Positions 5,691 to 36,672 of a stretch of DNA of 64,000 bases are shown piece after piece. Below the pieces are notes generated by a model that was given only the letters and a program-made list of their open reading frames with translations, was not told where the DNA came from and searched no databases. Origin of the DNA: Candidatus Woesearchaeota archaeon CG10_big_fil_rev_8_21_14_0_10_37_12 (lineage in GTDB: Archaea; Nanobdellota; Nanobdellia; Woesearchaeales; ARS49). The stretch is taken from positions 28,416-92,415 of the forward strand of contig PCYA01000007.1 in the NCBI GenBank assembly GCA_002762795.1. The letters are read 5' to 3'. Both the position numbers and the translations under genes were made by a program. Every line of letters begins with the position of its first letter. Within the stretch, counting starts at the first letter, position 1.

Positions 5691-5731
5691 TTTTTACCCG
5701 CCACTCATAAAAAAGATTAATCGCTAAATAA

Positions 5732-9270: not shown

Positions 9271-9487
9271 CAAATGAACCTCAACAACATCACCATCAAA
9301 TATCACTATTTGAGTCGTGCCATAAGTGGGGTATTCGCTACGCTCAACCCCACGATAAACTTAAACTTTAACACAAAAAAACACCCCCGACCCACAACAG
9401 CCAACAACCATCACTTCAAATAAAAATCCCAACCGCCCCAAGGAGCGGGGTATCATAACAAATGAACCTCAACAACATCACCATCAA
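9271..9487. repeat. 29-nt direct repeat of the DRG gene 3' end flanking palindromic elements
   Basis: caaatgaacctcaacaacatcaccatcaa at 9271-9299 and 9459-9487; GTGGGG...CCCCAC palindrome at 9326-9353 and a GGGGTA hairpin at about 9431-9452 in between. Confidence 0.9.
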
Positions 9488-25348: not shown

Positions 25349-26587
25349 CTATTTTGAAAAAACCGTCCTTTCTTTTCCCTGATACTGCGAACCTAATACT
25401 TTAGAACCATACGGGCGCTCCACACCATTCGGAAAAAAGAACACCTGACCAAAACCAAGGATATCACCAGGATGAATAACTCTGCCAGTAAGCCACTTAG
25501 GCTGACGAGAAAAACCCCCCTCATAACCAGGATCAACCAAACCATCAGTCAGACCAATAACAGATAAATTACGCAAACCATCTGCAAAACTCGCTAAATG
25601 AGCAAAAGACCTATCAACAGGCTCCCCTGTAAAACCATACAAGTTATCCCAAAAACGAATAGCAACATGAGGAGACAATTTTAATTGCTCAACAGTCTCA
25701 ACAACAACATGATCTCTGTTTTCAACTCTGTACCCCCTGCATATATCGATCGGCTCAACAACATCACCAAGTTCGTCTCGCTTGTTAAAATCAATAGGCT
25801 TGTCCAATTTCTTCATTCTATACGCAACATTACTTGCGTGCACAACAAGCCGCCCACCACGAAACTCTGCATTAGGAGAAACAGACAAATAGCCCTCTTT
25901 AACAAGCAACGCAAACTCTCTTCGCGTACTAACCTCTACACCCATATCAAGCGAACGCACTAAACTACCACGCTCTGTTTCTTTACAACCATCAAATAAA
26001 TGTTCAAGAGTAGGAGCAACATCCTGATAAGGCTCAACAAAAACAAACATTTGCGCAAAACGATCACCATAACTTAACTGAACAGGATTAGGACCAAAAT
26101 TACCCACATCAAACTGCAAACCATCTGCAGAATTAAAGACAATATTTGGAGGACAAACAAAACATCCCAAACGCCTCAAACTACTCCTCGCTTCAATAGA
26201 AGGCAACAAATATCTCCCATCAAAACCACGCACAGAAAGCTCACGATCAGTCGTATAATCAGACTGGCGTCCAGGTTCAAACTCGATCTGTTCTGTCAAA
26301 ACAACAGTTGACCTCTGACCAGGAAGCAACACCGGACCACGAGAAATACAATCACCAAACCCTCTACTAAGCGGCTCCAAACCTTCAACTTCCTTAAACT
26401 TCAAATCAATAGTAACAGGCTGAATCCTGCAATCATCTGACAAATCTAGTGCAGGCGTAAAAGACATCAAACCAGCATTGATTGCTTGTCTCAAACCTCT
26501 ATCAGACAATATTCTGCGTCTATCTCCCACACGCCCATATTTTCTCGATTCCCAATCTTTATCTAACGGACTTGGCAACTTTATCAT
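25349..26587 (-). CDS. Tandem dCTP deaminase/dUTPase-fold protein
   Basis: IQPVTIDLKF, IEARSSLRRLG in first half; VDPGYEGG, HPGDILGFGQVFFF, PYGSKVLGSQYQGK in second half. Confidence 0.8.
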   Translation of the reverse strand: MIKLPSPLDKDWESRKYGRVGDRRRILSDRGLRQAINAGLMSFTPALDLSDDCRIQPVTIDLKFKEVEGLEPLSRGFGDCISRGPVLLPGQRSTVVLTEQIEFEPGRQSDYTTDRELSVRGFDGRYLLPSIEARSSLRRLGCFVCPPNIVFNSADGLQFDVGNFGPNPVQLSYGDRFAQMFVFVEPYQDVAPTLEHLFDGCKETERGSLVRSLDMGVEVSTRREFALLVKEGYLSVSPNAEFRGGRLVVHASNVAYRMKKLDKPIDFNKRDELGDVVEPIDICRGYRVENRDHVVVETVEQLKLSPHVAIRFWDNLYGFTGEPVDRSFAHLASFADGLRNLSVIGLTDGLVDPGYEGGFSRQPKWLTGRVIHPGDILGFGQVFFFPNGVERPYGSKVLGSQYQGKERTVFSK

Positions 26588-26638: not shown

Positions 26639-26900
26639 AATAAAAATCCCACCGGAGCAGAGCTCCGGGGTACAACAAAAATCAAAGATTTTTGTGTACA
26701 GCAAAAAATACTTTTTTCGCGTACAGAAAACCTCAAGGTTTTCTTGTACAAGAAAATTCCTCGAATTTTCTTTGTATTTTTAAACTTCATCGGGAAAAAT
26801 CATATCGCAGCAGAGCTGCGGGGTACAAGAAAATCTCAAGATTTTCTGTACAGGAAAAGCAGGGCTTTTCCTTGTATTCGACCCAACATTTGAAATAAAG
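26639..26900. repeat. Hairpin array with GTAC-type linkers
   Basis: ccggagcagagctccgg-GGTAC-...aaaaatcaaagattttt-GTAC-...gaaaacctcaaggttttc-GTAC-gaaaattcctcgaattttc...; 26814-26900 identical to 36524-36610. Confidence 0.9.
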
Positions 26901-36362: not shown

Positions 36363-36672
36363 GAAAACTCGCTATCCCTGCAGCAAGCTGACGGGGTATT
36401 ACGCGAGTTTTCTCGGCACTAAAAAACCACCGGGTTTTTGGTGCCCTGAAAATAAAAAGTATTTTCATGGCTTCGCCGACCAGCAATTTCAGTCTTTCAA
36501 AGTTGGTGCAGATAACCGCAGCAAGCTGCGGGGTACAAGAAAATCTCAAGATTTTCTGTACAGGAAAAGCAGGGCTTTTCCTTGTATTCGACCCAACATT
36601 TGAAATAAAGAAAAACGCACGATAATTTTCCTTGTATTAAACCCCTCTACAAAGTTCTTGCGAACTTTGCAA
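36363..36672. repeat. Cluster of palindromic elements (hairpin array plus GGGGTA elements)
   Basis: GAAAACTCGC...GCGAGTTTTC around TATCCC..GGGGTATT; cactaaaaaaccaccgggtttttggtg; 87-nt identity to 26814-26900; agaaaaacgcac...cgaactttgc remnant. Confidence 0.88.

Follow-up and report, generated by a model that had tools for sequence, protein, structure and literature searches.

The window (the whole stretch of 64,000 nucleotides that was analysed) belongs to a woesearchaeal genome of 1.35 Mb that is 99% complete, and on its plus strand it holds a 255-bp element (26645-26899) in which two arrays of short hairpins are carried. The element is bordered on the left by AATAAA (26639-26644), the presumed IS200-type target site, and it closes on the right with a second AATAAA (26894-26899), a right end common to other copies. 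Across the element, one GC hairpin precedes four A/T hairpins, and beyond a spacer a further GC hairpin precedes two more A/T hairpins, all given here on the plus strand. The left terminal GC hairpin (CCGGAGC-AGA-GCTCCGG, 26652-26670) is followed by GG(TA) and then by array 1 (26673-26774), which is composed of HP1 (26673-26696; CAACAAAAATC-AAA-GATTTTTGTG between TA dinucleotides), HP2 (26699-26721), HP3 (26724-26746; CAGAAAACC-TCAA-GGTTTTCTTG) and HP4 (26749-26774). To the right lie the 5' arm of the right-end outer stem, CTTCATCGGG (26785-26794), the right-end GC hairpin CGCAGC-AGA-GCTGCG (26806-26823), which is followed by GGG, and array 2 (26826-26874), a pair of hairpins, or doublet, formed by gamma (26826-26848) and delta (26851-26874). 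A second gamma-delta doublet of the window, with an outer stem of its own (TTTCAAAGTTGG...CCCAACATTTGAAA), was located on the same strand at 36520-36609.

An earlier reading made from the sequence only had listed these hairpins and their GTAC linkers at 26639-26900, and all of them were present there. The hairpins are real, but the single run that it described is two arrays, each adjoined by a GC-rich hairpin within the one element. Its near-constant linkers were likewise found; they appear conserved because every module has the form [C...palindrome...G] flanked by TA dinucleotides, and the apparent conservation is thus a consequence of the module form. Folded as single-stranded DNA, the array stretch reached -60.1 kcal/mol, compared with -23.0 +/- 3.5 kcal/mol in 200 shuffles (z -10.7). 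Arrays of perfect hairpins, defined as at least two perfect hairpins with a stem of at least 7 and a gap of at most 10, numbered 29 in 464 kb (the 64-kb window and 20 sampled stretches, 400 kb, of the same genome), whereas ten Markov shuffles gave 0.7 on average. Dispersed repeat made up about 4.8% of the 464-kb sample, and about 60 matching stretches were found in the host genome by BLAST with the array region. The array is therefore not confined to one locus, and pairing is kept between copies and between genomes, so that neither uniqueness nor random divergence without pairing, the two outcomes named beforehand as speaking against a structured array, was found.

Empty elements, about 105 bp long and sharing these ends, were identified at three loci (L018, L020 and L021). 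Their first part reads AATAAA-AATCCC-[GC hairpin]-GGGG-TA-TTTTTAAA and the remainder [outer stem: spacer, GC hairpin, GGGG-TA-TTAGA]-GAAATAAA; the right-end GC hairpin of the window copy is present in all three. The outer-stem arms are CTTCATCGGG/CCCAATGAAG in L021 and TTTCAAAGTTGG/CCCAACATTTGAAA in L011. In the window copy the 3' arm is CCCAACATTTG, which comes from another subfamily than the 5' arm CTTCATCGGG, and the window copy is therefore a chimera. The same carrier architecture also occurs in other genera, where the sequences of the outer stem differ and its pairing is kept: with arms set by hand, 85 of 89 positions were Watson-Crick between genera, and 0 of 10000 permutations were as good.

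AATAAA stood at the left of all 26 copies that the pattern search recovered from the fetched stretches of this genome, while the sequence further left differed; because AATAAA belonged to the search pattern, this figure is a description and not a test. Independent support for the boundary was provided by the relative G003, in which two identical autonomous copies (L220 and L237) at different loci with unrelated flanks have AATAAA on both sides and share the right end GGAATAAA. A 19-base piece of the left GC hairpin, GGAGCAGAGCTCCGGGGTA, had at least 117 matching stretches, and among those listed were Woesearchaeota, Nanoarchaeota, Pacearchaeota, Nanohaloarchaea, Thermoplasmata, Treponema-type spirochaetes and others. 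This piece is located at both ends of the tnpA element L129 and beside tnpA in L127 and L164. The Y1_Tnp genes of these three loci matched PF01797 with E values of 1e-30 to 1e-34, and the L129 protein matched the solved HUH IS200/IS605 transposases 2ec2, 2f4f and 2vhg.

The window element thus combines near-terminal palindromes resembling autonomous IS200/IS605 ends with boundaries at a short target, which were seen in L220 and L237 as well as in its own copies. These tnpA-linked hairpin ends and AATAAA boundaries, together with the empty copies and the same architecture in other genera, mark the locus as a non-autonomous element of the IS200/IS605 type, as PATEs are in Haloquadratum. Judged from its sequence it is a transposase-less IS200/IS605-type derivative, a statement of descent and not of present mobility. 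It has been reported that the PATEs (palindrome-associated transposable elements) of Haloquadratum walsbyi are likewise transposase-less IS605-type derivatives with near-terminal palindromes and without target duplication, and that small repeats of that organism named SMR-A, the mobilisation of which is not known, insert preferentially within PATE palindromes, much as the hairpins here are found within carrier ends (PMC3119063). However, SMR-A repeats are about 110 bp long with prominent terminal inverted repeats (PMC3119063), whereas the inserts here are nested, GTAC-linked double hairpins of about 50 bp whose stems are largely genome-specific.

Other repeats were noted during the survey. A second AATAAA-bounded family with nested palindromes, AATAAAGAAAAACGCAC...CCCCGACCTGAAGGTCGGGG...GTGCGTTTTTC, occurs at positions 5727 and 63910 of the window and in L023, L024, L065, L076 and L077, and some of its copies contain doublets. 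More AATAAA-bounded palindromic elements with GC hairpins lie at 9419 and 56838 of the window and in L027, L028 and L083, several of them with the tail CATAACAAAT. Many loci (L065, L068, L075, L076, L078) contain a composite palindromic repeat of larger size, CAAGAACCACCCGTC...GACGGGTGG...ATGAAGC...GCTTCAT, whose loops occur in either orientation. Treponema and Spirochaetaceae records (L103-L219) contain a large number of copies of the GGAGCAGAGCTCCGGGGTA hairpin with TATTAAACCAGACTTTCGAATAA, often at contig edges.

The TAA of AATAAA forms the stop codon of an ORF in 6 of the 26 carrier copies, the left end with its A-run, GC hairpin and T-run is terminator-like, and the fold is very stable, all of which would agree with arrays selected as RNA, either as bidirectional terminators or as 3'-end stabilising hairpins at gene ends. 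However, the majority of copies lie away from stops, and the window copy is placed between two minus-strand ORFs, upstream of the ORF starting at 26587. Stems vary among genomes and empty copies are common, which also does not favour such selection, and AATAAA targeting alone accounts for the copies at stops. The Rfam scan of the window matched only SRP RNA, 5S rRNA and tRNAs, with none at the array; a known RNA family was thus rejected, and the likeness to modular structured RNAs that had been proposed from the sequence received no positive support. Selection as RNA is in our judgement very unlikely.

At the foot of every hairpin a single extra base is left unpaired, either on the 5' side (type L) or on the 3' side (type R). 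In array 1, HP1 (extra 5' A; its homologue in L002 was also typed L by script) and HP4 (type R by copy comparison and the typing script) are the left and right halves of an outer doublet, while HP2 (type L, imperfect here) and HP3 (type R, extra 3' T) are those of an inner one; in array 2, gamma (L) and delta (R) were typed by script as an LR doublet. When arrays were typed by script over all loci, 22 read LR and 3 read LLRR in 12 genomes, and since copies inside one genome are not independent, the 12 genomes are a fairer measure than the number of arrays. All 25 completely parsed arrays obeyed LR or LLRR with 0 violations. Only two other patterns were met, namely RR, which is the right half of the window array with its imperfect HP2, and LLR, which was cut off by Ns. 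The rule in all completely parsed arrays indicates that the unit is a mirror-symmetric doublet and that arrays are nested or tandem doublets; the single hairpin, which had been taken as the unit before, is less favoured by the data than the two-hairpin pair.

Comparison of copies showed [C...G]TA modules cleanly present or absent at GGGG-TA. At site 1 no modules are found in L018, L020 and L021, two in L010 and four in L009 and in the window; at site 2 there are none in L009, two in L010 and in the window and four in L014. At both sites the difference between two and four modules is the same inner pair, HP2-HP3, which is present or missing inside two different outer doublets; L010, for example, is without HP2 and HP3, and L009 has HP2. 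Copies thus differ by TA-delimited gain or loss of modules, presumably by gain rather than loss.

The pattern GGGTAC-hairpin-GTAY was found in 20 of 292 genomes of the order, with up to 26 matches per genome, while a reversed-pattern control gave near zero. The stems of these matches were mostly genome-specific. In the contexts inspected, several matches were verified as doublets between a G-rich hairpin foot and TTaAACCC, and some were not doublets. Many of the 26 matches in the relative G050 were identical, which suggests a recent spread of the carrier in that genome.

A different setting was observed in the relative G016, where tandem doublets, read by eye as LRLR, split two tRNA-Ser genes (L093:1250-1620 and L094:1330-1690) at GGATA^TCCCGG. 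The third hairpin encloses in its loop a complete second tRNA-Ser with the same anticodon. The outer and inner tRNA-Ser of L093 have different acceptor stems that both still pair, and the outer one may therefore not be a mere pseudogene. In L094 (1330-1450) the D-arm region of the outer tRNA-Ser has a hairpin-bearing insertion, flanked by the 8-base repeat GTCGCATA.

In L012, L013, L017 and L025 (family B), homologous modules occur in the same order with CA/TG linkers. These linkers alternate as GCAC, GTGC, GCAC, GTGC, each of them one transition from GTAC, and they are complementary to both neighbours. The GCAC/GTGC alternation was likewise seen in G036 loci with other stems. Since family B keeps the same four hairpins with CA/TG linkers, strict TA insertion is not universal, and strict TA duplication for every array was rejected as a general rule.

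The linkers also bear on a possible role of a DDE transposase of the IS630/Tc1-mariner type, for which the doublets would be ultra-short MITEs with ends TA-CA...TG-TA and with TA as the target duplication. TA is indeed found on both flanks of TA-type arrays, of whose search TA was a part, and the tRNA-Ser insertion reads as a clean TA duplication in which GGATA-TCC has become GGATA[C...G]TATCC. DDE_3 is carried by 8 of 59 relatives, and in L051 of G050 an IS630-like (DDE_3) gene is located about 0.7 kb from a doublet array. However, DDE_3 had no match in this genome or in the array-bearing G057, G058, G016, G036 and G042, long terminal repeats are not shared, and the family B linkers are CA/TG. 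Furthermore, a length of 50 bp leaves very little room for a paired-end complex. A MITE origin is thus considered unlikely.

Y1_Tnp (PF01797) had no match in this 99% complete genome and is present in relatives such as G003. The TnpB zinc-ribbon was not matched in this genome either, and a TnpB-linked RNA at the right end of the element was rejected for this reason. Y1 was not associated with arrays, being found in 8 of 20 array-pattern genomes and in 106 of 292 genomes overall, and around the Y1 genes in the fetched loci the array script found no TA-type doublets. The missing transposase matches in this genome have to be weighed against the frequent loss of repeated IS copies from assembled genomes.

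Among stems with several copies, the loops were exact reverse complements in 23 of 112 equal-length pairs, and 16 of 18 stem families had a reverse-complement loop pair; the loop of HP4, for example, is CTC in the window and GAG in L009. Arm homogenisation with spacer inversion has been described as a signature of template switching (PMC8604942). Quasipalindrome evolution by template switching predicts perfect arms and inverted spacers, both of which are seen here, but it has been described for single hairpins and not for nested arrays (PMC8794818, PMC8604942). Template switching probably maintains the perfect stems.

The strongest rival of a mobile origin extends such processes to the modules themselves, which would then have needed no transposase and would have grown, shrunk and been reshuffled only by replication slippage, by recombination between near-identical arm bases (TACARGAAAA) and by template switching inside IS200-type relics. 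It agrees with the widespread inversion of loops, the linker-proximal bases that arms have in common, the linkers complementary to both neighbours, the chimeric nature of the window copy itself and a genome without a transposase match. However, slippage should also yield single-hairpin changes, LL, RL and odd arrays, whereas complete arrays were only LR or LLRR, and a doublet array interrupts two tRNA-Ser genes of G016 outside any recognised IS200 end. With the pair rule and the tRNA insertions speaking against it, growth by replication only appears doubtful.

The earlier suggestion of folded recombination sites came close, in that the array lies in hairpin ends of the IS200/IS605 type, where Y1 acts on folded single-stranded DNA, and its units resemble REP doublets. 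Like REP, REPIN and BIME sequences, which are associated with RAYTs (TnpA-REP), relatives of IS200 TnpA, they have an inverted-hairpin doublet as the unit (the LR pairs of the completely parsed arrays), a 5' tetranucleotide tag, an irregular hairpin foot, an extragenic location and a tendency to cluster (PMC3116915, PMC8266576, PMC3733652). The tag of REPINs is GTAG or CGTC, whereas here it is GTAC (GTGC/GCAC in family B) and is shared by neighbours. Unlike REPINs, the units here nest in each other's centre and their stems vary freely, in a genome without a RAYT or Y1 match. It has been reported that the E. coli TnpA-REP requires the GTAG tag and a stem bulge, and that with GTAC in place of the Marinomonas tag the cleavage shifts to GA/GT sites (PMC8266576); GT borders the doublet units here. 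The cargo works like REPINs but is not counted among them, since the tag is not GTAG and a cognate RAYT (Y1 transposase) was not matched in this genome. Fungal mitochondria also have double-hairpin elements, very short palindromic repeats of two hairpins that are thought to be mobile and whose enzyme is not known; these are organellar, and the likeness is one of shape alone. A nested bracket grammar with shared GTAC tags was not found in the open-licence papers searched. The nested GTAC-linked doublets are thus apparently an undescribed variation on known bacterial hairpin parasites, and for them the earlier statement that no standard feature class fits exactly holds, while the carrier is of an already known kind.

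The carrier ends match tnpA elements, the TA differences between copies are clean and pairwise, complete arrays read LR or LLRR, stems are largely genome-specific and loops are inverted. For these observations we prefer a reading in two layers, with a probability of roughly 0.55, in which REPIN-like GTAC-tagged doublets were inserted at the ends of an IS200-type carrier and were afterwards reshaped by template switching. The carrier would be a transposase-less IS200/IS605-family derivative inserting beside AATAA(A), at times at a stop codon, and when mobile it would have been moved in trans by a Y1 (HUH) TnpA acting on its folded single-stranded DNA ends. The cargo unit, about 46-52 nt long, would begin with a left hairpin that has GTAC as its 5' tag and a single extra base on the 5' side, continue with GTAC and end with a mirror-image right hairpin. 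Doublets would be acquired whole at the G-TA that forms the base of the IS200 terminal hairpins, and subsequent doublets would enter earlier ones through their central GTAC; such nesting would place GTAC between all hairpins while allowing the stems to diverge. Switching of the template from one arm of a hairpin to the other would keep drifting stems perfect and flip loops. Because the units are REPIN-like in form and bordered by GT, Y1-type single-strand insertion of doublets at G-TA is favoured, and by analogy an enzyme of the Y1/RAYT type may have moved them. Speaking against this are the occurrence of Y1 genes without regard to arrays, the fetched Y1 loci in which no TA-type doublet was found, the CA/TG linkers of family B and this genome with no Y1_Tnp, TnpB zinc-ribbon or DDE_3 match.

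Tentatively, the double hairpins of about 50 nt with GTAC might instead be an independent minimal mobile class in DPANN archaea, occurring in many genomes, inserting at G-TA with a preference for folded IS200-type ends and, like balanced brackets, for each other's centre, having fully exchangeable stems and depending on a novel enzyme or replication process. We regard this as possible, and continue to prefer doublets inserted in an IS200-type carrier. LR pairs nested like brackets provide a simple, testable grammar for hairpin arrays that otherwise resemble noise, and they suggest REPIN-like biology in Woesearchaeota-type archaea. The arrays are also a natural case of a conserved tag with a free stem, which bears on how hairpins are recognised by Y1 enzymes and on the question whether perfect hairpins can be kept up by template switching alone. 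Should the doublets turn out to move on their own, few of the mobile DNAs known from prokaryotes would be as small.
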